64,000 nucleotides of DNA from Thioalkalivibrio sp. ALJT (lineage in GTDB: Bacteria; Pseudomonadota; Gammaproteobacteria; Ectothiorhodospirales; Ectothiorhodospiraceae). The stretch lies in the NCBI RefSeq assembly GCF_000381825.1, contig NZ_KB907125.1, forward strand, positions 1 to 64,000, in the 5' to 3' direction. The notes under the pieces are model-generated. The model was not told where the DNA came from and did no database searches. It was given only the letters and a program-made list of their open reading frames with translations. This document shows, piece after piece, positions 38,605 through 49,374 of the stretch (position 1 is the stretch's first letter; every line of letters starts with the position of its first letter). Made by a program: the position numbers and the translations under genes.

Positions 38605-38979
38605 CACCGAACCGAACGTTCGTTCTAATATAGACCGGAAGAGCAAATCACGCCACCCGTCCGGCTTTCTGTTCGGCACCATCGAATGCACCGACCCCGA
38701 CGTGATCGAGCCGATCCGCGAACACCTCCAGGAATCGACACGAGGCGGAACCGGCAGGCATTCCCAATACCCACGCCCGATGTGACCCCGGGGAGAGCGA
38801 GGCCCCTTTTTGCGGTCTCTCGAGGCGCATCGTGGGGACGGTGTAAAGAGAGAGAGCGGGACAAGGGGCCGCTCCCCCTGCCCGCGCGCAGCCGATCAGT
38901 CCAAAATCCGGCAGCCCCCGGGGAAATCATCCGCGTTGGGGACTACGCTCAAGACACCATCAAGACAAAGGAGCATCCG
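38605..38979. other. Divergent regulatory region between the TetR operon and the rhodanese gene
   Basis: About 375 bases without a credible gene. It contains the TetR operator at 38613-38622 and, next to it, TATATT on the minus strand (38626-38631), a plausible -10 box. The rhodanese promoter must be at the right end, but no clear boxes were found. Confidence 0.45.
38613..38622. promoter_or_regulatory. Candidate TetR-type operator
   Basis: CGAACGTTCG is a perfect ten-base palindrome within ACCGAACGTTCGTTCT, between a minus-strand TATATT box and the regulator's start. Position and symmetry fit autorepression by the adjacent TetR protein. Confidence 0.55.
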
Positions 38980-39654
38980 ATGAAAAACACCGCACCCGCC
39001 TCAGTCCTGATCCGGAGCCTGTTCGCGAGTCTGCCGCTGCTGCTGGCTGCGCCAGCCTTCGCGGAGGTGGAGGTGGGCATCACCGCCGACCTGGCCGAGT
39101 TCGAAGTGCTCCATGACGCCGAACGCATGACGGTGACCCGCGACCAGGACACCTTCGCGACCATCGATCTCGACTACGCCCAGATTGCCAGGCCCTGCCC
39201 GCCATTCTGTGTTCAGCCGATGAATCTCGGTCGCGGGGTGGAGACACTGGGCGAACTCGAGTTTATCGACTACCTGAAGCAGACCCCGGAACGCGACGAT
39301 CTGATCATCATTGATTCGCGCACCCCGCGAGAATACAGCCGCGGCACCATCCCCGGTGCCATCAACATCCCGTGGGACGAACTGCATTTCGGCTCCGGCG
39401 CCGACCCGGACGACGTGCGCGAGGTGTTGACCGAACGCTTCGGCGTGGTCTACGACGGCGACTTCTACGATTTCAGCCAGGCAAAGACCCTGGTGCTGTT
39501 CTGCAACGGTCCCTGGTGCGGGCAATCCCCCACCAATATCCGCACCCTGACCAATCTCGGCTACCCGGGCGAGCACATCAAGTGGTACCGCGGCGGCATG
39601 CAGATGTGGCACTCCTTCGGCCTGACCACGGTCGAAGGCCAAAGTGCAGACTAG
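38980..39654 (+). CDS. Exported rhodanese-like protein
   Basis: This 224-residue protein has a signal peptide (LIRSLFASLPLLLAAPAFA) and a C-terminal rhodanese domain. DLIIIDSRTPREYSRGTIPG is the first part of the fold, and LVLFCNGPWCGQSPTNIRTL holds the active-site Cys. The last part, KWYRGGMQMWHSFGL, is the family end. The N-terminal 90 residues are a separate small domain with two Cys (ARPCPPFCVQP). The ATG at 38980 follows AAAGGAG. The stop TAG is the first part of a repeat element (39651). It probably works in periplasmic sulfur chemistry with the DsrE proteins nearby. Confidence 0.88.
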   Translation: MKNTAPASVLIRSLFASLPLLLAAPAFAEVEVGITADLAEFEVLHDAERMTVTRDQDTFATIDLDYAQIARPCPPFCVQPMNLGRGVETLGELEFIDYLKQTPERDDLIIIDSRTPREYSRGTIPGAINIPWDELHFGSGADPDDVREVLTERFGVVYDGDFYDFSQAKTLVLFCNGPWCGQSPTNIRTLTNLGYPGEHIKWYRGGMQMWHSFGLTTVEGQSAD

Positions 39655-39812
39655 TGGGCCATGCGGGAAGTGTGGTGACGATGGAGCACAGCCAGAAGTG
39701 TCGGAGCCAGGCGGGCAAGTGCTGGAATAGCCACCCTGTTTCAAACGGGCCCAACGCAGCGCCGGCGCTTCTGGCGAAGCGATCGGTTACCAAACTTTCC
39801 GCGTGGTCCACC
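39651..39812 (+). repeat. Stop-codon-linked foldback repeat, copy 1
   Basis: The element starts CTAGTGGGCCATGCGGG and ends CTTTCCGCGTGGTCCACC, which pair as imperfect inverted repeats. An inner pair, CCAGAAGTG and CGCTTCTGG, extends the fold. Its TAG is the stop of the rhodanese gene. Copies are at 43386 and, inverted, at 48257. Confidence 0.8.
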
Positions 39813-39901
39813 AGGCGCCTGTCGGGTTCGGGACGGGTCCGCTGCGCATGCGCGAGAGCATCTTCCTCGCCCGGCTGCTCCAGCCGGGCGGAACCCGGGA
39901 A

Positions 39902-40474
39902 TCAGCGCGGGTGGGTGTGGCGATAGGTCCGCAGACGCCGGGTCTTCTCCACCATGCGCCAGAGGGAACGGCTGTTGTTGTAGCGCGAGACGTGCTGCAG
40001 GGGGACCCACAGGACCTCGTGTGACTCGTCGCTGCCGGGCACCGGCAGACGGTCGTCGATCTCCAGCAGGAAGCGCACGTCGATATGCTCGTGCATCGGG
40101 AAATGCGGGCTGGCCGGAATGGTGTGGATATCCAGGTCGAACACATCCTCCGCGACAAGTCGGATGTGTTCCGGGGCCAGCCCGGTCTCCTCGTGCGTTT
40201 CGCGCAGGGCCACCTGCAGGATATCGGCCTGGCCATCGGCGTGCCCGCCAGGCTGGAACCAGCGATGATGCTTGCCATGCAGCAGCAGCAATGCCTGTTC
40301 GCGATCCGGGCTGACCACCCAGGCCGAACCGGTCACGTGCGCCGGAGTCAGGTCACAGTGGAAGCAGTCCGGGTGCGCCTGGACGAAATCCAGCGCACGG
40401 CGGACAAAACCGGCCTCCTCCATGAAGGTCGTCTGGTGGCGGGCAAGAAGGTCCAGCAGCTGCGCGCGATGCAT
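39902..40474 (-). CDS. NUDIX hydrolase
   Basis: This 190-residue NUDIX-fold enzyme hydrolyses a nucleoside diphosphate linked to another group. The box is GGHADGQADILQVALRETHE followed by ETGL; the catalytic REThEEtG part is complete while the first Glu position is replaced. Flanking segments LLLLHGKHHRWFQPGG and VDVRFLLEI-type strands fit the fold. It starts one base after the stop of the CsoS1D-like gene, so they are co-translated. The physiological substrate is unknown. Confidence 0.85.
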   Translation of the reverse strand: MHRAQLLDLLARHQTTFMEEAGFVRRALDFVQAHPDCFHCDLTPAHVTGSAWVVSPDREQALLLLHGKHHRWFQPGGHADGQADILQVALRETHEETGLAPEHIRLVAEDVFDLDIHTIPASPHFPMHEHIDVRFLLEIDDRLPVPGSDESHEVLWVPLQHVSRYNNSRSLWRMVEKTRRLRTYRHTHPR

Positions 40475-40475
40475 C

Positions 40476-41090
40476 TCAGGTGCCAGCCGGGTTGTGCAGC
40501 GCGTAGATCGCGGCACGCGCCGCCTCGTCCACGTCGCCCTCGCGGCCGGCCAGGGTCAGGCGGCCAAAGGCCCCCACCGCGCGCACGTCGATCAACGACA
40601 CGCTCGCGGCCTTCAGGGCCTGGTTGGCCGCGTAGATAATATAGCCGGCCGGCTCCGCCTCCAGGATAAACATGCTCTGATCCGGCAGGATCATGTTGCC
40701 GCGGCGATTCTGGCGGTTAATCAGCACGGTGTGGTCCGGGGTCATCCCGCGGATGGTCTCCTGCCACGGGATGCGACAAGGCTGACGATCTTCCTGACTG
40801 GCGCCCAGACGCGACAGCAGCACGCGGCCGGCCTCCTGCACTTCGCTCTGGTCACGGTGGTGGATCACCATGGAGCCGAATTCGCGCTCCACCACCTGCT
40901 GCGCGAGATGCACGTTGGTCGCCTTCAGCGCCACATCGGTCAGGCGATGCACCGCCATCCCCGGCGAAACCTCCACCCACAGGCAGGAATCCCCCGGAAC
41001 GGGCAGAAAGCCCTGGGAGACCGTGGCCATGTATTCCGCCAGCTGCGGCTGGAGGGAATCCATGTAGACATAGGTTCGCAGCTGGATCAT
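40476..41090 (-). CDS. csoS1D: CsoS1D-like tandem BMC-domain shell protein
   Basis: This 204-residue protein contains two bacterial microcompartment domains in one chain. It matches the carboxysome shell protein CsoS1D, whose trimers stack and form large, gateable pores. Distinctive segments are [58 protein letters not shown] and [16 protein letters not shown] carboxysome implies CO2 fixation, but no other cso or Rubisco gene is in this window. It forms a two-gene unit with a NUDIX hydrolase. The ATG at 41090 matches family N-termini. Confidence 0.85.
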
Positions 41091-41358
41091 CGATTCACTC
41101 TGGGCCAGGGTCTGTGCCCCCGGACGCCCCGCACGGCGCGGCCCGAACCCGCACGGGGACCCGCACACACCCGAGCGGGCCGCAATCGGATCGCAGGCCC
41201 CGCAACGCGTACACGGAAGAATTTAAGGGGCGTATTGTGAACGCTGCGTGCCCCAAGCTCAACGTCAGCCCGAGGGGACCCGCCCCACAACCGGGCCACG
41301 GCACCCTGAGGCCACCGTATAATGCGGGCGCGATACCCACTGCTCCCAAGGAATCCAC

Positions 41359-43389
41359 ATGTCCAAGCAGGACGCGCCCCAATGGCTCGCACGCCTGGCC
41401 AGCACCGAACTCGATCTGGCGGATACCCTGCGCTGGATCGTGGACTGGCTGCGCCCGGAGGATGCGCGCAACATCGCCCCGGTCATTGCCCGCATCGAGG
41501 CCCTGGTCCTGGCCCTGGACGAGGAACCCGAGCTGCGCGGCCGCCTGCGTCAGCGGCTGGAGAGCGGGCTGGAAGACGCACGCCACCTGACGCTGTATAC
41601 CGGCATCGGCCTGTTTTCGCGCAAGGGCTTCTTCCGTGAGGCCGCGGAGCTGCTCTATGAGCGCATCAACCCGCGCCCGATGGACCGCGAAGACCTGAAA
41701 GACATCCTCTACCATGTCTTTCACGACCCGCAGGACGCGCTCTGGGTCGCCCGACTGCCGGACGATGCCTGGTCGCGGCTGTTGCAGGCGCTGGGCTGCC
41801 TCTCCGGCGACCACCCCGGGGTACTGCATCGCGCCCGCGAGGAGGCCCTGTATGCGCTGGAAATGCTGTCGATCTGGATTGCGGCCGAGGAGCTGGAGCC
41901 CGAATTGCTGCGGCTGGACCCGACCATCGCCGAACGCAACTCGGCCTTTGTCGCCCAGGAACGAGAGATCTCGGCCTATGTGCGCGACTACCGGCGCGCG
42001 CTGGAAGAGCCGGACCATACACGCATGGATGATCGCCACGCGCGAGTGCTGCTGCAGCAATGCAGCGAACAGGTCGAGCGCCTGCGCCAGCGCGCGATCA
42101 CCCAGGGCAACAGCCTGTCCCTGACGCATCTGCTGGAACGCCTGGACCAGACCCTGGCCCGCATCCACAAGCTGCTGGACCTGCTGGAGCCGGACAGCGG
42201 CGAATCGCCCCGCCGCGCCGCCGTCGGCGTGTTCCGCGAGCTGGTCACCATCAGCGCCCGCAGCCACGGGGTCCGCGCGCTGTGGCAGGACAACGTCAAA
42301 CTGGTATCGCGCAGCATTACCCAGCATGTCAGCGACACCGGTGAGCATTACATCACCCAGTCGCGCGGCGAGTACTTTCAGATGCTGCGTTCCGGCGCCG
42401 GCGCCGGATTGATCATCGCGCTGATGGCGCTGATCAAGATCCAGATCGAGGGGCTGGGCCTGTCCGAAGGCTGGAATACCCTGCTGGTCAGCCTGAACTA
42501 CGGCCTCGGCTTCGTACTGATCCACATGCTGCACTTTACGGTCGCGACCAAGCAGCCGGCGATGACCGCCGCCCGCCTGGCGGCCGCCATCGAAGAGAGC
42601 GAACGCGGCACCGCCGACCCACGCAAGATGGCGGACCTGCTCATGCGGGTGGGCCGCTCGCAGTTCGCCGCGGTCCTCGGCAATGTCGGTGTCGCCCTGC
42701 CCACCGCCATCCTGATCGGGCTGGCGACGGCCAGCCTGTTCGGGACCAGCATCCTGTCCAGCGGCGAGGTCGACTACCTGCTGGACGGGCTGCGTCCGAT
42801 CATGGGTCTGGCATTGATGTTCGCGGCAATCGCCGGGGTCTGGCTGTTCGTGTCCGGCCTGATCGCCGGCTACTTCGACAACCGCTGCGCCTACCTGGAC
42901 CTCCCCGGCCGTCTGCGCGAACACCCCCTGCTGCGACGGCTGCTGCCCACTCGCGCACGCCACCGCCTGGCCGACTGGATCGGGTACAACTACGGGGCGG
43001 TGATGGGCAACTTCCTGTTCGGCATGCTCCTGGGGCTCACCGGTTATGTCGGTTATCTGCTGAATCTCCCGCTGGATATCCAGCATGTGGCCTTTGCCTC
43101 GGCCAACCTCGGCTACGTGACCTCCGGCGAGGCCCTGGGGCTGCTGGGCTTCGGGCTGTTCCTTGGCTTTGTGCTGCTGATCGGGGCAGTCAACCTGTGG
43201 GTCAGCTTCGGGCTGGCATTGTACGTCGCCCTGCGCGCCCGCGGCGTCCGCATCGGGGCCTTCGGCCGCGTATTCCGGGCCTACGGCCAGCACCTGCGCG
43301 AACGCCCGCGCGAGTTCCTGTTCCCGCCGCGCCCCGAGACCGGCAACGGCCCCGACCACTCCGATTCCAACCCCAACGGCTCGAACTAG
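41359..43389 (+). CDS. Gcr-family 'site-specific recombinase' membrane protein
   Basis: This 676-residue protein matches the family annotated as site-specific recombinase Gcr. The N-terminal half is soluble and helical (for example LARLASTELDLADTLRWIVD, GIGLFSRKGFFREAAELLYE). The C-terminal half has about six membrane helices (ILIGLATASLFGTSIL, IMGLALMFAAIAGVWLF, LGFGLFLGFVLLIGAVNLW). No recombinase catalytic motif is visible, so the historic name should not be read as a proven activity. The ATG at 41359 fits. Its stop TAG belongs to repeat copy 2. Confidence 0.75.
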   Translation: MSKQDAPQWLARLASTELDLADTLRWIVDWLRPEDARNIAPVIARIEALVLALDEEPELRGRLRQRLESGLEDARHLTLYTGIGLFSRKGFFREAAELLYERINPRPMDREDLKDILYHVFHDPQDALWVARLPDDAWSRLLQALGCLSGDHPGVLHRAREEALYALEMLSIWIAAEELEPELLRLDPTIAERNSAFVAQEREISAYVRDYRRALEEPDHTRMDDRHARVLLQQCSEQVERLRQRAITQGNSLSLTHLLERLDQTLARIHKLLDLLEPDSGESPRRAAVGVFRELVTISARSHGVRALWQDNVKLVSRSITQHVSDTGEHYITQSRGEYFQMLRSGAGAGLIIALMALIKIQIEGLGLSEGWNTLLVSLNYGLGFVLIHMLHFTVATKQPAMTAARLAAAIEESERGTADPRKMADLLMRVGRSQFAAVLGNVGVALPTAILIGLATASLFGTSILSSGEVDYLLDGLRPIMGLALMFAAIAGVWLFVSGLIAGYFDNRCAYLDLPGRLREHPLLRRLLPTRARHRLADWIGYNYGAVMGNFLFGMLLGLTGYVGYLLNLPLDIQHVAFASANLGYVTSGEALGLLGFGLFLGFVLLIGAVNLWVSFGLALYVALRARGVRIGAFGRVFRAYGQHLRERPREFLFPPRPETGNGPDHSDSNPNGSN

Positions 43390-43530
43390 TGGGCCATGCG
43401 GGAAGTGCGGTGACGATGGAGTGCAGCCAGAAGTGCCGGAGTAGCCACCCTGTTTTCAACTGGCCCAACGCAGCGCCGGCGCTTCTGGCGAAGCGATCGG
43501 TTACCGAACTTTCCGCGTGGCCCACCCGGG
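43386..43530 (+). repeat. Stop-codon-linked foldback repeat, copy 2
   Basis: The copy starts CTAGTGGGCCATGCGGGAAG and ends TTCCGCGTGGCCCACCCGGG. It is shorter than copy 1 because 18-20 bases in the first arm are missing. Its TAG is the stop of the Gcr-family gene, and the next gene begins 15 bases after the repeat. Confidence 0.8.
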
Positions 43531-43544
43531 AAACACTGTCTGCA

Positions 43545-44636
43545 TTGAGCGATCTTCGCGAGCATGGCGGGACGCCGACCCTCGCCCTGGTGCTGATACT
43601 GGTGCTGGTGCTCGCCGGCTGCGCCGGGACGATACCCAGCCCCTCGGGAGACAGCCGCGGCACGCCGGAGTTGACGCCGGACAGCATCCGGGTCGCCGAT
43701 GGCGACCACCTGCCACTGCACCGCTGGGGCCCGGAAGACCCGGAACGGGTCGTACTGGCCCTGCACGGGTTCAACGACCACGGCGGCAGCATGCAGGCCC
43801 TGGGCGAGGCACTGGCGGCAGACGCCATCGCAGTCTACGCCTATGACCAGCGCGGCTTCGGGGCCACGCGCAACGCCGGCTACTGGTCAGGACACCGACT
43901 GATGGCCGCCGATGCCCGCACCGTGCTGCGGCTGCTGGATGCCCGCTACCCGGAGCAGACGCCCTTCCTGGTCGGCAAGAGCATGGGGGGCGGAGTAGCG
44001 CTGCTGGCCGCTGCCACCCACGCCGACGACGAAACCCCCGCCCCGGTCGCAGGTACGGTCCTGATCGCCCCTGCCGTCTGGAGTCGGGGCGACATGCCCT
44101 GGTACCAGCGCTTCGGCCTCTGGCTCGGGGCGCGCCTGGCACCCGGCTGGCGCCTGGACGGCGAGCTCGTGGCCGACCTGGAGATCCACCCCACCGATGA
44201 CCCGGAAGTGCTGCAGCAGATGCGGGCAGACCCGCTGGTCCTGCACGACGCCCGCATTGATGCCCTGGACGGGCTGACAACCCTGATGACCCATGCGCTG
44301 GAGGCGGCCCCCAACCTGCCGGCGCCAACCCTGACCCTGTACGGCGACCGCGACGACCTCGTCCCGCCAGGGCCCCTGACCCGCCTGCTGGAGACCCTGG
44401 CAGACAGTGATGACCCGGGACACCGCGCCGTGCTGTACCCCGAGGGCTATCACATGCTGACGCGCTACACCCGCGCCCGGACCACCTTCGACGACATCGT
44501 GGCTTGGCTGCACCATCCGCAGGACCCGCTCCCGTCCGGGCACGACGGTACTGCGGGCGCCCTGGCAGCGACGCTCGCGGAACGCTGGGGAGACACGGAT
44601 GACGCTGGCCCCCGGCCCGCTGCATCAGTACCGTAG
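43545..44636 (+). CDS. Lipoprotein alpha/beta hydrolase (lysophospholipase-like)
   Basis: This 363-residue protein has a lipoprotein signal ending in the lipobox LVLAGC, so it is anchored in the periplasm by its N-terminal Cys. The hydrolase fold follows: VVLALHGFNDHGGS (oxyanion), VGKSMGGGVALLAA (nucleophile Ser), LYGDRDDLVP (Asp) and YPEGYHMLTR (His), as in monoglyceride lipases and lysophospholipases. The start is probably the TTG at 43545, because the frame upstream runs into repeat copy 2, whose translation should not belong to the protein. The ribosome binding site is weak. Confidence 0.75.
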   Translation: MSDLREHGGTPTLALVLILVLVLAGCAGTIPSPSGDSRGTPELTPDSIRVADGDHLPLHRWGPEDPERVVLALHGFNDHGGSMQALGEALAADAIAVYAYDQRGFGATRNAGYWSGHRLMAADARTVLRLLDARYPEQTPFLVGKSMGGGVALLAAATHADDETPAPVAGTVLIAPAVWSRGDMPWYQRFGLWLGARLAPGWRLDGELVADLEIHPTDDPEVLQQMRADPLVLHDARIDALDGLTTLMTHALEAAPNLPAPTLTLYGDRDDLVPPGPLTRLLETLADSDDPGHRAVLYPEGYHMLTRYTRARTTFDDIVAWLHHPQDPLPSGHDGTAGALAATLAERWGDTDDAGPRPAASVP

Positions 44637-44665
44637 GAACGAGCACGCCGCAGGAGGATCGCCGC

Positions 44666-45052
44666 ATGAGTGAATCGAAATCCAGCCGCCTCGACGACCT
44701 GGTCGCACGCAGCCGCCAGGATCAGGCGGCTCGCGAACGCGGCTACCGCGAACAGGCCTTGAAGATGTACCCCTGGGTCTGCGGACGTTGCGGGCGCGAG
44801 TTCACGCGCGCCAACCTGCGCGAGCTGACGGTGCACCACCGCGATCACAACCACGACAACAATCCGCCGGACGGCAGTAACTGGGAGCTGCTGTGCCTGT
44901 ATTGCCACGATAACGAACACCAGCGCTTCACCGATGCTGCGCCCGGTCGCGGCACCACACACGGAAGCACAGCGACGCACAGCCCCTTCGCCGGCCTGGC
45001 CGGGCTGCTCAAGGGCGACCGGGACGCAGGCGACGACTCCTCGTCCTCATAG
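44666..45052 (+). CDS. YajD-like HNH nuclease family protein
   Basis: This 128-residue protein has an HNH zinc-finger nuclease domain: WVCGRCGREFTRANLREL (first Cys pair), TVHHRDHNHDNNPPDGSNW (the H-N-H core) and LLCLYCHDNEHQR (second Cys pair and final His). YajD relatives have this size and layout. The C-terminal 35 residues are low complexity. The start has AGGAGG upstream. It lies after the lipoprotein hydrolase gene and may share its transcript; no function is known. Confidence 0.85.
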   Translation: MSESKSSRLDDLVARSRQDQAARERGYREQALKMYPWVCGRCGREFTRANLRELTVHHRDHNHDNNPPDGSNWELLCLYCHDNEHQRFTDAAPGRGTTHGSTATHSPFAGLAGLLKGDRDAGDDSSSS

Positions 45053-45072
45053 CGCAGGCGACCGCCCGCAGC

Positions 45073-45654
45073 TCAGAGGCGACGCCACCAGAACTGCAGC
45101 GGTTTGTACGTCTCCTGCGCCGCGCCAGTATCCGGCCACGAAAACTCGCATACCAGCCCTTCCGCCCGGGCATAGCCACGGCGCGACCAGAATCCGTCCA
45201 GCGGGCGGTAATCCGCCGGCCGCCGCGGGTCATCCGGTGGCCGCACCACCGCACAGAAAGCCGCGTGCTCAAATCCCAGCTGGCGTGCTACAGCCTCGCG
45301 CGCATCGAAAAACCGATGGCCGGCCCCGTACCCGCGATACGCCGGTTGCAGCACCGATTCCGCGAGATAGTAATAGCGCGCCGTGTCCAGCCCGCGGGCA
45401 TGAAACGGGGCCTGGAACTCGGGCTCGGCCGCCGCCAGCGGCAGCGCGGTGGACGCTCCCACCACCCGCTCGTCATCCAGCGCCAGCACCAGGGTGCTGT
45501 CCGGGCACTCCGCGTAATGGCGCAGGTAGCCCTGCTCGTATTCCGCCGACCCGGCGTACAGGTAGGGCCACTCGCGAAACACCGCGATGCGCAGACGCGC
45601 CACAGCCTCCAGATACCGCTTGATCGCCGCCCCGCGCACCGTCTGAAATTGCAT
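45073..45654 (-). CDS. GNAT-family N-acetyltransferase
   Basis: This 193-residue acetyltransferase uses acetyl-CoA. The fold is seen in ARLRIAVFREWPYLYAGS, STLVLALDDERVVGASTALP and the CoA-binding segment VLQPAYRGYGAGHRFFDARE, where RGYGAG is the pyrophosphate loop. The C-terminus (PDDPRRPADYRPLDGFWSRR) gives the acceptor-specific part. Acceptor is unknown. It is convergent with the HNH gene, with only 20 bases between stops. ATG at 45654. Confidence 0.85.
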   Translation of the reverse strand: MQFQTVRGAAIKRYLEAVARLRIAVFREWPYLYAGSAEYEQGYLRHYAECPDSTLVLALDDERVVGASTALPLAAAEPEFQAPFHARGLDTARYYYLAESVLQPAYRGYGAGHRFFDAREAVARQLGFEHAAFCAVVRPPDDPRRPADYRPLDGFWSRRGYARAEGLVCEFSWPDTGAAQETYKPLQFWWRRL

Positions 45655-45927
45655 AGTGGTCGGCCTCCGGTGAGGTCAGTGCAGGGGGACCTGTGGGATC
45701 TGGAGGATCATCACGAGCGAGACAGGGGATCCGTCCCCGATCCGCCTGGCCCCGGTCAGCATAACGTGCGGTACCGCGGGGCTCGAACCCCTTGTTGCCG
45801 CGCAAACGATCTACACTCGGAACTGGGGCCGGCCCTGTCCGGGCCGACCTGCGGGCGGCCCCGCCAACCGACGTACCGGTCCGGTGCGTCCGGCACCGCC
45901 CCACCAGCCCACCACAGGAGGAACTGC

Positions 45928-46377
45928 ATGGATACTGTCTGGATCGTTGTTGCCGATGCCGCGCGCGCCCGCATCTTTACCTGCGAGGGCCGCGCCTGTC
46001 AGGGAATGCACGAGAGCGAGACGCTCTCGCACAGCGAATCCCGCGCCCATAACCAGGACCTGGTGTCCGACCGTCCCGGGCGCAGCTGGGCCAGCGCCAG
46101 CGGGGATGCCCGACACGCCATGCAGGAAAGCACTGACCCCGCCGCCAACGAGCGCAATCGTTTTGCGCGCCAGGTCGCCGAACATCTCAAATCCGCCTGT
46201 CACGCAGGCAGCTTCAAGCACCTGGTCATCGTGGCCGCACCTACCTTCCTGGGGGCACTGCGCGACGCCCTGGACCCGACCGTAGCCCAGAGCGTCACCG
46301 CCGAGGTCGCCAAGAACGTGACCAAATCCGTCGACGCCAGCACCTTGCGCAAACACCTGCCCGACTTCCTCTATTAG
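45928..46377 (+). CDS. Host attachment family protein
   Basis: This 149-residue protein belongs to the family named after a protein required for attachment to host cells. The pattern TVWIVVADAARARIF at the N-terminus, the FARQVAEHLKSACHAG helix, HLVIVAAPTFLGALRDAL and the end VDASTLRKHLPDFLY are typical. The fold resembles the eRF1 domain 3 type. In free-living bacteria the role is unknown, so the name should not be read literally. AGGAGG precedes the ATG at 45928. Confidence 0.85.
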   Translation: MDTVWIVVADAARARIFTCEGRACQGMHESETLSHSESRAHNQDLVSDRPGRSWASASGDARHAMQESTDPAANERNRFARQVAEHLKSACHAGSFKHLVIVAAPTFLGALRDALDPTVAQSVTAEVAKNVTKSVDASTLRKHLPDFLY

Positions 46378-46668
46378 GGCTGAGCGCATTGATCGATGTT
46401 TCCCTTCGGCACCGGGACGTGCCGCCGGAATCGACCACGGCAAGGGCGATTGCGTCCGGAACAAGCGGCAAGCCCCTTGGCCAGGGCAACGCATTACCAG
46501 GCCCTGCAGGCCCGCGGGCGCTGAAAAGGCCCGCATGGCTTTGTTCAGCGCTTCCCTGATCTTCCCGCGGGCCCAACTCTGCAGGTCGGTTCCGGCCCGC
46601 TCGATTCCCGCCACGCCATGGCATCCGCCGGCCCCGGAGAGACCCCGGGGCGGGCTCGCCTGCGGCGT

Positions 46669-47271
46669 TCAGAGCGGCCCCAGGTCCTCCGGATGCAACG
46701 TCCCCAGCAGGCGCGGTGCCTCCGCATCCGGGTCGAACACCGCGATCTCGCCCTCCTCGATCAGCACCCGGGCCGCACGCTGCAGATTGATGTTGTGGCC
46801 CACGATCACCACGTTGCGCGTCGCGTCCTCGGGTGCAGTGACCAGATAGTCCTGCAGCGCAGCCACCAGGGCCTGCTGTTGCTGGCGATTGCGCACCGGC
46901 GGGAGGTTGAACAGATCATCGCGGGTTTCGTAGCGACCTTCCCCAAAGGCGATGCGGGCGCTCTCGGTATTGCGGCAGAACGCCGAACTGAGGATGCGCT
47001 CAACGGGGATGGCGTGACGCTCGAAACCCGCGCCCACCTGCCGCGCCTGCTCGCGCCCCGCGTCATTGAGGTTGCGCTGGTGCTCGCAGCGGCTCATGTC
47101 GGAAAGATCCGTATCGCGCTGCCCATGATCCGTGGCGGCATGACGCCAGTAGATCACCAGCCCGCCTCCCTGCATGCGCTCCAGCAGGGCCTCGCGGTCC
47201 AGGGTATCGGCATTGACCGTGAGCAGGGGCACAAACAGCATCAGAACTACCGCCAACCAGCGATGGCGCAT
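46669..47271 (-). CDS. Exported histidine phosphatase family protein
   Basis: This 200-residue protein has a signal peptide (WLAVVLMLFVPLLTVNA) and a histidine phosphatase fold. The catalytic loop is unusual: IYWRHAATDHGQRD keeps the RHA of the canonical RHG motif. VERILSSAFCRNTESARIAF is the second signature and VVIVGHNINLQRA carries the second His. Substrate is not known. I start at the ATG 47271, which has GAGG nearby and puts the signal peptide at the N-terminus. Confidence 0.8.
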   Translation of the reverse strand: MRHRWLAVVLMLFVPLLTVNADTLDREALLERMQGGGLVIYWRHAATDHGQRDTDLSDMSRCEHQRNLNDAGREQARQVGAGFERHAIPVERILSSAFCRNTESARIAFGEGRYETRDDLFNLPPVRNRQQQQALVAALQDYLVTAPEDATRNVVIVGHNINLQRAARVLIEEGEIAVFDPDAEAPRLLGTLHPEDLGPL

Positions 47272-47430
47272 CGGGACCTCCGGAATCATGGTTTGCACTA
47301 TTCAGCTGACCACCCCGGACCGGGTCGGGTTCAGCCGCCGCCACGCGGTGCTCGCCACCGCTTCGCGTTGACGCCCCCCGAAGCCAGCCCTAGTATGCCG
47401 ATTCCCCCTTGCCCGGAATTCCGCGCCCCC

Positions 47431-48219
47431 ATGACCTACTGTGTCGCCATCGACCTGGACGACGGCCTCGTCTTCGCCTCCGACTCCCGCACCAATGCCG
47501 GGGTCGATCAGGTCAGCACCTACAGCAAGATGCACACCTTCGAGATCGAGGGCCAGCGGGTATTCGTGGTGCTCGCGGCGGGCAACCTGGCCACCACGCA
47601 GTCCGTGGTGCACCAGCTCAAACGCGACATGGAAGAAGGTGCCGACGAGAGCCTGGCGACAGTGGAACGCATGTCGGACGCGGCCGAGTACCTCGGCCGG
47701 ATCAACCGCCAGGAGGCGGAGAAGCACTCCGAAGCGCTATCACGGTCCGGCATCAAGGCGGAGGCGACACTGATCATCGGGGGCCAGATCGGCGAAGACG
47801 CCCCGGCCATCTATCTCATCTACCCGCAGGGCAACTACATCACCACTTCGCAGCAGACCCGGTTTCTGCAGCTGGGCGAGAGCAAATACGGCAAGCCGAT
47901 CCTGGATCGAATCATTGATCACACCACCCCACTGGGAGATGCGGCACGCTGCGCCCTGGTCTCCATCGATTCGACCATCCGTTCGAATCTCACCGTCGGT
48001 CCTCCGGTCGAGGTGATGGTCTACGAGCGCGGCACCCTGACCTTTGACCACTACCTGTGTCTGGAGGCGGACGACGGCTATCTGCGCTCACTGAACCAGG
48101 CCTGGGACAAGAACATCAAGAAGGCCTTTACTGACCTGCCACGGTTCGACTGGGAGTCCGCGCACGCCCACAAGCAGCGCGGTACGCGGGTCAGCCGCGG
48201 CTCCGGCAGCGCCTCCTGA
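47431..48219 (+). CDS. Anbu (ancestral beta-subunit) proteasome-like peptidase
   Basis: This 262-residue protein matches Anbu, a bacterial relative of the 20S proteasome beta subunit. Removal of the initiator Met would expose Thr1 of MTYCVAIDLDDGLVFASDSR, the N-terminal nucleophile position. GVDQVSTYSKMHTFEIEGQR and IYLIYPQGNYITTSQQ fit the family. Anbu genes usually sit beside an alpha-E protein, a circularly permuted ATP-grasp protein and a transglutaminase-like protein; the first two are here, convergently encoded (48418-50824), but no transglutaminase gene is seen. The cluster is thought to modify and recognise a small peptide or protein, as yet unclear. Confidence 0.88.
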   Translation: MTYCVAIDLDDGLVFASDSRTNAGVDQVSTYSKMHTFEIEGQRVFVVLAAGNLATTQSVVHQLKRDMEEGADESLATVERMSDAAEYLGRINRQEAEKHSEALSRSGIKAEATLIIGGQIGEDAPAIYLIYPQGNYITTSQQTRFLQLGESKYGKPILDRIIDHTTPLGDAARCALVSIDSTIRSNLTVGPPVEVMVYERGTLTFDHYLCLEADDGYLRSLNQAWDKNIKKAFTDLPRFDWESAHAHKQRGTRVSRGSGSAS

Positions 48220-48256
48220 CCAATCCGGCAAGCCTGACCGCTGCCCCGACAGGCCC

Positions 48257-48421
48257 CGGGTGGGCCACGCGGAAAATTCGGTAACCGATCGCATCGCCAG
48301 AAGCGCCGGCACTGCCGTTGCGCAAACTTGAAAGAAGGGGGCTATTCCAGCACTTGCCCGCCAGGCTCCCGCACTTCTGGCTGTGCTCCATCGTCACCGC
48401 ACTTCCCGCATGGCCCACTAG
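48257..48421 (-). repeat. Stop-codon-linked foldback repeat, copy 3 (inverted)
   Basis: On the minus strand the copy begins CTAGTGGGCCATGCGGGAAG and ends CCGCGTGGCCCACCCGGGG, closely matching copies 1 and 2. Its first TAG is the stop codon of the alpha-E gene on that strand. It fills the gap between the convergent Anbu and alpha-E genes. Confidence 0.85.
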
Positions 48422-49374
48422 GCCACCGCCTGTCCCTGCGCCGGGACGGCCAGGAACCAGGTCGTGGCGTTGGCACCATGAATCTCTCCGATATCCCTCT
48501 GCAGCACGTCGATAAAGGCGTGCAGGCCATCTTCCTTGATCAGTTCGTGCACCTGGGCGCTGGTCGCATGACGGCGTGCCTGTATCACCAGACGCAGCGG
48601 CAGTTCGTTGTTCGGCAGCTTCTCCAGGGCATCCTGCACCTGATTGAGGGTATGGGTGACCGCACGCGGGAAGGCATTATCTTGAAGCAGGAAGCGCACG
48701 ACATCGACCCCGTTGATGCGGCGCTTCACATGCTGGCGATACATCTGGAACCCGCTCTGCGAACGCAGGATGCTGGTCCACAACAGACCCTCATAGGGCT
48801 CCGGGTCCTCTCCATCCTTCTTCAAATGCCGCAGGGCGCCAACGTCGATCTGTCGCGTCCCCATGTCGGCGCGTTCCAGATTGCGCCCCAGGCGGATAAA
48901 GTCGTAGGCGGCGTCGTGACTCATGGTCCCGGCCAGCAACCCGGTCAGGGTCTGGCAGCGCTGGATTACCTCGGACAGGAAGTCGAAACGCCCCCGCTTG
49001 CCGATGCCCTGATCAATGCGGTCACGAGCGAACAGGTACAGCTCGTTCATTACCTCCCAGGCCTCGGACGGCACCAGGTCACGCGTGGTACGTACGTTCT
49101 CGCGGGCCGCCCGCAGGGAGTTCAGTACCGAGCTCGGGTTGTCGTCATCCGCGAGCAGGAATTTCACACAGTTGCGTTCATCATCACGCTGGTAATGGTT
49201 GTCGAACTGCCCCTCGTTACCGGTAACCTCCACCAGTCCCTTCCAGGACAGCTGCACCGACTTCGGCATATCCAGCGCCAGCAGGTTAAAGGCCATGACC
49301 ATGCGCGCGGTGTTTTCGGCGCGTTCAACATAACGCGCCATCCAGTACACACGTTCGGCGACTCTCGAGAGCAT
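48418..49374 (-). CDS. Alpha-E domain protein (DUF403)
   Basis: This 318-residue all-helical protein begins MLSRVAERVYWMARYVERAE, the signature of the alpha-E family, and continues with typical segments such as LAGTMSHDAAYDFIRLGRNL and ERADMGTRQIDV. Members accompany circularly permuted ATP-grasp enzymes in predicted peptide-synthesis clusters, often with Anbu. It starts one base after the stop of the ATP-grasp gene, indicating an operon. Its stop codon is provided by repeat copy 3. Confidence 0.88.
   Translation of the reverse strand: MLSRVAERVYWMARYVERAENTARMVMAFNLLALDMPKSVQLSWKGLVEVTGNEGQFDNHYQRDDERNCVKFLLADDDNPSSVLNSLRAARENVRTTRDLVPSEAWEVMNELYLFARDRIDQGIGKRGRFDFLSEVIQRCQTLTGLLAGTMSHDAAYDFIRLGRNLERADMGTRQIDVGALRHLKKDGEDPEPYEGLLWTSILRSQSGFQMYRQHVKRRINGVDVVRFLLQDNAFPRAVTHTLNQVQDALEKLPNNELPLRLVIQARRHATSAQVHELIKEDGLHAFIDVLQRDIGEIHGANATTWFLAVPAQGQAVA

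Follow-up and report, generated by a model that had tools for sequence, protein, structure and literature searches.

A CTAG-flanked repeat at gene ends in Thioalkalivibrio is probably a non-autonomous IS630-type MITE

The YPAL repeat of Yersinia inserts close to stop codons, and it has been argued to act on mRNA from the 3′ end of genes and to be kept there by selection. Other short repeats supply the stop codon themselves: GTAG REPs have been described as frequently contributing the TAG stop (PMC3733652), and 36 of 58 overlapping coding sequences take their stop from a BOX element (PMC3049150). The terminal inverted repeats (TIRs) of RUP resemble those of IS630-Spn1 (PMC3049150). In the window, i.e., the whole 64-kb stretch of Thioalkalivibrio DNA analyzed in this study, three copies of a repeat provide the stop codon of the gene upstream. 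The sequence-only reading knew of no described family with this rule, which was too strong a statement given the descriptions of GTAG REPs and BOX. We propose, with a probability of roughly 0.86, that the repeat is a non-autonomous IS630 (Tc1/mariner-like) MITE that inserts at CTAG, and that its stop codon pattern arises without recognition of stops.

The window copies and the genes they end

All three copies begin with CTAGTGGGCCATGCGGG without a mismatch, at 39651 (+), 43386 (+), and 48421 (−), and the chance expectation for matches to CTAGTGGGCCATGCGGG is 0.36 with up to three mismatches allowed. Copy 1 (39651..39814, + strand) carries its left CTAG at 39651-39654, the TAG of which is the stop of a rhodanese-like ORF (38686..39654, +), and its right flank tetramer now reads CCAG (39811-39814). 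Copy 2 (43386..43528, +) is a short form in which approximately 20 bp are absent internally; its left CTAG (43386-43389) ends a 676-aa gene (41359..43389, +), and the right tetramer is now CCCG (43525-43528). Copy 3 (48257..48421, −) has its left CTAG at 48421-48418, where the TAG ends the alpha-E gene, a 318-aa ORF (48418..49374, −), and the right tetramer is again CCCG (48260-48257). The names rhodanese, Gcr-family (for the 676-aa gene), and alpha-E are those of the sequence-only reading, assigned from the letters alone. Its observation that the copies share a start whose TAG is the upstream stop was confirmed, with the TAG ending a long ORF in 3/3 cases, as was the fold-back of each copy, seen as long hairpins (z = −8.6, −6.9, and −5.3 for copies 1, 2, and 3).

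In relatives that carry the same genes without the element, CTAG was found at the homologous rhodanese-like stop in 5/14 of the relatives shown (as GACTAG), at the 676-aa gene stop in 2/14, three relatives of the 676-aa gene not being resolved, and at the alpha-E stop in 1/26 (G009). CTAG is absent at the three window stops in most of the relatives shown; the stop of the most similar alpha-E relative (G015) reads GTAG, and some homologous stops are TGA (L155, L091). In all five relatives examined for the 676-aa gene, the next gene begins 8-11 nt upstream of its stop, and, from this comparison of sequences, the insertion of copy 2 is read as having split a gene overlap. One of the five GACTAG relatives (G007) contains a second, different MITE-like element just after the rhodanese stop, suggesting that the same CTAG stop is usable by unrelated elements.

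CTAG ends and a candidate IS630-family partner

The element is short and dispersed, with TIRs at both ends and a usual form of ~160 bp (about 140-170 bp overall). The host genome contains seven full copies, six with a CTAG start, and matches to the element occur in at least 17 of 30 Thioalkalivibrio genomes. Outside this genus, common ends were found in Microbulbifer and in MAGs labelled Chromatiaceae and Competibacteraceae; plasmids gave no match to the element, and viral contigs gave no exact match to one end pattern. The sample comprised 100 places among the matches listed, mostly full length, and the seven host-genome copies. The profile search kept 110 regions, or 109 after a duplicate (L020) was dropped, and 91 distinct copies from 14 genomes formed the set with both flanks classifiable.

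CTAG is the usual tetramer on both sides, present at 74/107 of the 5′ ends and at 54/101 of the 3′ ends, the 5′ CTAG of the family being the better kept overall. Where the end tetramer is not CTAG, the outer C and G are retained in 51/80 cases. In copies located at stops, the stop-side CTAG is intact in 35/43 and the far-side CTAG in 20/43 (p = 0.0015).

A complete IS630-family insertion sequence, located via its transposase family, was found in Microbulbifer litoralis (1148 bp including the flanking CTAGs; L419, 861-2008). Its ends, CTAGTGGTCCATGCGGAAA and CTAGTGGGCCATGCGGTTA, are nearly those of the MITE, with 15/16 outer bases in common at the left end and 16/16 at the right end. The single 357-aa ORF, with 272 bits, exceeds the cut-off of 100 for the NCBIfam IS630 model and also matches PF13358; the end pattern of the element has 47 matches in the same genome. 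Against its four best plasmid matches, one of them annotated as ISPpu2 family, the transposase shows 59-61% identity. Related IS630 copies have CTAG on both sides in two cases in G005 and at three of five plasmid loci, and the IS630 copy in G011 has CTAA on one side.

In the 30 Thioalkalivibrio genomes, we saw no insertion sequence carrying these ends, and the IS630 copies inspected there have other ones. A search for an autonomous partner by end pairs (at most one mismatch) in five non-Thioalkalivibrio genomes returned nothing beyond MITE-spaced pairs and lone ends. Among lone ends, L368 and L372 were considered as possible insertion sequence ends; by eye, their listed ORFs include no transposase, and both lie at an ORF end. 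Chance origin of the lone 16-base sites was ruled out, since the reversed pattern gave no match in the 30 genomes. IS481 also has a preference for CTAG. IS5 prefers this under-represented tetramer as well (PMC5493358), and both were set aside as partners when the transposase scored as IS630.

Stop association and competing explanations

Gene calls were made with our own codon model rather than taken from annotation; by this model, 5/7 copies in the host genome end a gene in frame. Among the 91 distinct copies, 47 are in stop frame at one end or both, 39 of these tetramers being still CTAG and 43 any stop codon. The distribution over stop, other, and gene-interior positions is 47/40/4, compared with 50/81/52 for 183 unoccupied CTAGs, a null set of 14 + 57 + 112 sites from the window, the gene-centred relatives, and the MITE loci, whose stop share is possibly inflated (1/14 in the window part). 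The stop share exceeds that of the unoccupied sites both by frame (47/91, p = 0.0001) and with intact CTAG (39/91, p = 0.013), and copies are much rarer within genes (4/91 vs 52/183, p = 9e-7). Among non-interior sites, the residual stop excess is weak: 1.9-fold by frame (p = 0.026) and 1.3-fold with intact CTAG required (p = 0.40). The suggestion that the element is found at gene ends holds to the extent that copies are commoner at stops than CTAG generally; about half of them lie elsewhere.

These data fit a target-site explanation. The TIRs GTGGGCCATGCGGRAAGTTCGGT would be recognized in trans by an IS630-family transposase, and insertion at CTAG would leave CTAG at both ends. CTAG is strongly depleted (17 sites in the window vs about 48 expected from trinucleotides), with about a quarter of the remaining sampled sites being TAG stops, and many copies would lie exactly on stops because CTAG is scarce and often located there. 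Insertions within genes are rare, presumably because they are purged. The far-side CTAG would decay to CTGG, CCAG, and similar tetramers, and the gene-side CTAG would be retained because it is a stop codon. Together, the depletion, the stop share, the rarity of interior insertions, and the stop-side retention would produce an apparent stop-codon element without stop recognition.

The constant orientation relative to the gene noticed in the window holds for the three copies there and persists as a lean in the genus, although either end is usable: in the 47 stop-frame copies, the stop is supplied by the 5′ end in 27, by the 3′ end in 16, and by both in 4 (p = 0.13), and with intact CTAG stops only, the numbers are 25, 11, and 3 (p = 0.029). 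The strict lean of 25:11 is not explained by the palindromic target alone.

This lean, the very stable hairpins of the window copies, and the 1.9-fold excess at non-interior sites would suit a portable 3′-end RNA element, whose hairpin stabilizes or terminates mRNA and is kept by selection. We consider this improbable, since copies at stops (47) and elsewhere (44) show no difference in hairpin energy (p = 0.73), TIR pairing (p = 0.19), and profile score (p = 0.17), and the excess is only 1.3-fold with intact CTAG. The proposed role as a portable terminator found no support, as the five terminator-like sites in 39300-48700 all lie outside the copies, and Rfam gave no match for the element. A consensus structure on the MAFFT alignment of the 91 copies had 12 pairs only and was left unused. 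A related idea, rather unlikely in our judgment, treats CTAG, a tetramer avoided in these bacteria and frequent at stop codons, as a "safe haven" where IS630-type elements may land by genes that remain unbroken, duplicate the stop, and be retained at 3′ ends, with one orientation favored, because the hairpin insulates or stabilizes the transcript.

Alternatively, CTAG could be the outermost repeat of the element itself, which would bring the stop along and truncate or replace gene ends. Of 24 copy pairs, most of them from outside Thioalkalivibrio, 20 have CTAG at both ends and no further duplication evident beyond it, and the window stops lack CTAG in most relatives, as this explanation would have it. 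However, some element-free relatives have CTAG at the homologous stops, and L112 lies within a repeat for which the empty relative has CTTG, as does the right flank of L112, making this explanation quite improbable.

Under the target-site explanation, we infer the transposase as well as a duplication, either of TA or of the 4-bp CTAG; the two are indistinguishable from these ends, and some copies have unlike sides. In a Chromatiaceae MAG, the two tetramers differ in 3/6 copies, contrary to what a clean duplication would give; the copies are alike over the stretches seen. Tenzen and Ohtsubo reportedly found in 1991, going by their title, that TA within 5′-CTAG-3′ is preferred. ISY100 duplicates TA (PMC2170065).

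True stop codon targeting, in which the transposase or a partner recognizes gene ends beyond CTAG, is very improbable: the 47/91 stop-frame copies and the 11/21 exact CTAGTGGGCCATGCGG sites that are in-frame stops (20 lone-end loci fetched) point toward it, but 40/91 copies lie outside gene interiors and out of stop frame, the stop can be supplied by either end, selection of the lone sites by intact CTAG favors stops, and 50/183 unoccupied CTAGs are already stops. The stop-targeted MITE suggested initially is mobile and MITE-like, and the rule it follows concerns CTAG rather than the stop.

Comparison with known systems

Among described repeats, MITEPsy1 of Pseudomonas syringae has a TIR, GGAAGGTCTGAAAAAGCC, that is unrelated to that of the present element, whose candidate partner is IS630. 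GTAG REPs, which Thioalkalivibrio also has, are palindromes of 20-40 bp with GTAG at one end; the element is outside this definition, being about 140-170 bp long with CTAG at both ends. YPAL, about 168 bp long (PMC2267715), is likewise a stem-loop repeat, and the characterization "near stop codons and palindromic" applies to the Thioalkalivibrio element (47/91; hairpins). For the mRNA effect of YPAL, the indirect comparison was negative here, with hairpins no better at stops than elsewhere. IS630 MITEs such as RUP/IS630-Spn1 differ in that the Thioalkalivibrio element has a long nested hairpin and no matching insertion sequence seen in that genus.

CTAG depletion combined with the target preference of a transposon can make repeats seem built to end genes, which offers a testable reading for other stop-supplying repeats, such as GTAG REPs and BOX. 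With the IS630 family and its MITEs, the likeness lies in the ends, nearly those of the M. litoralis insertion sequence, in the CTAG sites, and in the TIRs; the named relatives nearest to the M. litoralis transposase include ISPpu2. The common ends tie the short elements of Thioalkalivibrio, Microbulbifer, and the Chromatiaceae- and Competibacteraceae-labelled MAGs to an IS630-type element, and the Thioalkalivibrio element appears to be a new relative of this known kind of mobile element.

Copies at stop codons in the window and genome

The three window copies of this roughly 160-bp non-coding element, at 39651..39814 (+), 43386..43528 (+) and 48257..48421 (-), follow a rhodanese-like gene, a 676-aa gene and an alpha-E gene, respectively, and share their first 17 bases with 0 mismatches. 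As the sequence-only reading had claimed, each begins with a CTAG whose TAG is the stop codon of a long ORF (3/3), and each folds back on itself (-98.3, -85.7 and -89.7 kcal/mol; z = -8.6, -6.9 and -5.3 for copies 1, 2 and 3). Internal to the end tetramers are TGGGCCATGCGGRAAGTTCGGT and its inverted partner, followed by a further inverted repeat around GCCAGAAG and CTTCTGGC. No terminator-like sites were found within the three copies, and an Rfam search of window positions 39500-48600 gave 0 matches.

Across the 21 contigs (2.66 Mb) of the own genome there are seven full copies of 145-167 bp, six with a 5' CTAG and one with CTAG at the opposite end. The proposed coincidence with stop codons extended to most of these: the codon model, which assigned the right frame in 1402/1446 training windows, placed the 5' end as an in-frame stop in 5/7, the loci L005 and L007 being the exceptions.

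In 5/5 relatives examined, the next gene has a lipoprotein-like start located 8-11 nt before the stop of the 676-aa gene, and the insertion of copy 2 separated this stop/start overlap (window 43386-43570). An ORF passes through copy 2 and continues in the downstream gene; it has a GTG directly at TAGTG, and the candidate in-frame starts after the insertion are GTG 43389, GTG 43410 and ATG 43416, within the element, or TTG 43545.

CTAG as probable insertion site and the excess at stops

The data are best read as an IS630-type MITE that inserts at CTAG, a depleted tetramer often found at TAG stops. In the window, CTAG was observed 17 times, whereas trinucleotides predict 48 and base composition 213. 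CTAG was present at the 5' end in 74/107 and at the 3' end in 54/101 cases; among 91 distinct copies from 14 genomes, 35 carried it at both ends and 70 at one or more, and non-CTAG end tetramers retained the outer C and G in 51/80.

The codon model assigned 183 CTAG sites unbordered by the element to stops (50), gene interiors (52) and elsewhere (81), and the 91 copies to stop frames (47), gene interiors (4) and elsewhere (40); gene-interior insertions are therefore under-represented (p = 9e-7). With interior sites set aside, stops were in excess 1.9-fold by frame (p = 0.026), 1.6-fold for the 43 copies still with a stop codon (p = 0.12) and 1.3-fold for the 39 with intact CTAG (p = 0.40). In copies with one end in stop frame, CTAG was intact on 35/43 stop sides vs 20/43 far sides (p = 0.0015), the former also comparing with 43/88 ends of copies without a stop. 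The constant orientation claimed from the window was reduced to a lean towards the 5' end, 27 copies vs 16 by frame with 4 at both ends (p = 0.13), and 25 vs 11 with 3 at both for intact CTAG stops (p = 0.029); two intact CTAGs occurred in 3/4 copies with both ends in stop frame (L047, L110 and L118; not L053).

If the hairpin served mRNA 3' ends, it should be better retained at stops. Between 47 stop and 44 other copies, however, no difference was found in folding energy (p = 0.73), TIR pairing (p = 0.19) or profile score (p = 0.17).

Lone 16-base CTAGTGGGCCATGCGG sites lacking the remainder of the element (L167-L186; e.g., L173 2394 and L175 2067) were in-frame stops in 11/21, and many diverge from the element directly after the 16 bases; L175, a 24-bp palindrome, resembles a collapsed copy.

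At the homologous stops, CTAG was present in 5/14 relatives shown for the rhodanese gene (G006, G029, G015, G012, G007), 2/14 for the 676-aa gene (G009, G007) and 1/26 for alpha-E (G009), the remaining relatives having GTAG, ATAG, TAA or TGA. In G007, an unrelated 318-bp element follows the rhodanese CTAG, so that 4/5 of these relatives are free. For the L112 copy, within a repeat, the empty relative has CTTG, and the L112 flanks are CTTG (right) and CTCG (left).

The G007 element, after the same rhodanese stop as window copy 1, belongs to a second MITE-like family. Its members are mostly about 270-350 bp long, occur in several genomes and have termini of the form (CTAG or TTAA) GGAGACGCTGATT, with variants; examples lie in the window (from 18411, 354 bp) and at L277 (from 2136, 318 bp). 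The copy at L386 ~3528 (same place as L093) was inserted at the central CTAG of a perfect palindrome, TCGTGACCGACTAGTCGGTCACGA. At L050, L064, L092, L155 and L184, copies or other small palindromes adjoin at a common CTAG, as if every insertion offered new CTAG targets.

IS630 relatives and distribution

The DNA search detected the element in at least 17/30 Thioalkalivibrio genomes and in 0/17 from the family's other genera. Exact matches to the 26-base end pattern came from Microbulbifer taiwanensis, M. litoralis and Chromatiaceae (269-bp elements), Competibacteraceae and Chromatiales MAGs, and a short Ignavibacteriales contig has another match close to its end; outside Thioalkalivibrio, elements have the same ends and unlike or distantly similar interiors.

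A DDE_3 search of 12 genomes placed an M. litoralis transposase ~640 bp from a lone element end. This locus contains a complete IS of 1148 bp including flanking CTAGs, with ends CTAGTGGTCCATGCGGAAAATAGTGTAAC and CTAGTGGGCCATGCGGTTAATTCTGTAAC and a single 357-aa ORF scoring 272 bits against the NCBIfam IS630 model (cut-off 100). CTAG on both sides was also seen for two IS630 copies in G005 and for 3/5 of the examined plasmid loci, those of P. luteola, Pseudomonas MPC6 and Marinobacter, a clear end pair not being found for the ISPpu2 and ISAzs31 loci; the G011 copy has CTAA at one side. No matching partner was seen in Thioalkalivibrio, because the IS630 copies inspected there have different ends, of the GTGTCCTTTAACA type. 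IS630-family transposase fragments lie at own-genome contig ends (L420, L423, L425, L427, L429), which suggests that an IS630 element with different ends is where the assembly breaks; the visible flanks are mostly CTAG, with one TTAG. A 270-bp element in G012 (L174 2119-2388) shares its outer 16 bases with the MITE, followed by TTAATAAGGTAACG, which resembles the Microbulbifer IS right end.

Comparison with known repeats

The literature search, with most subscription journals outside its coverage, found no title on this element. Stop codons supplied by repeats are known for GTAG REPs (PMC3733652) and BOX (PMC3049150). CTAG is known as a target of IS5 (PMC5493358) and MITEPsy1 (PMC3189936), and of IS630 in a title cited in PMC2170065.
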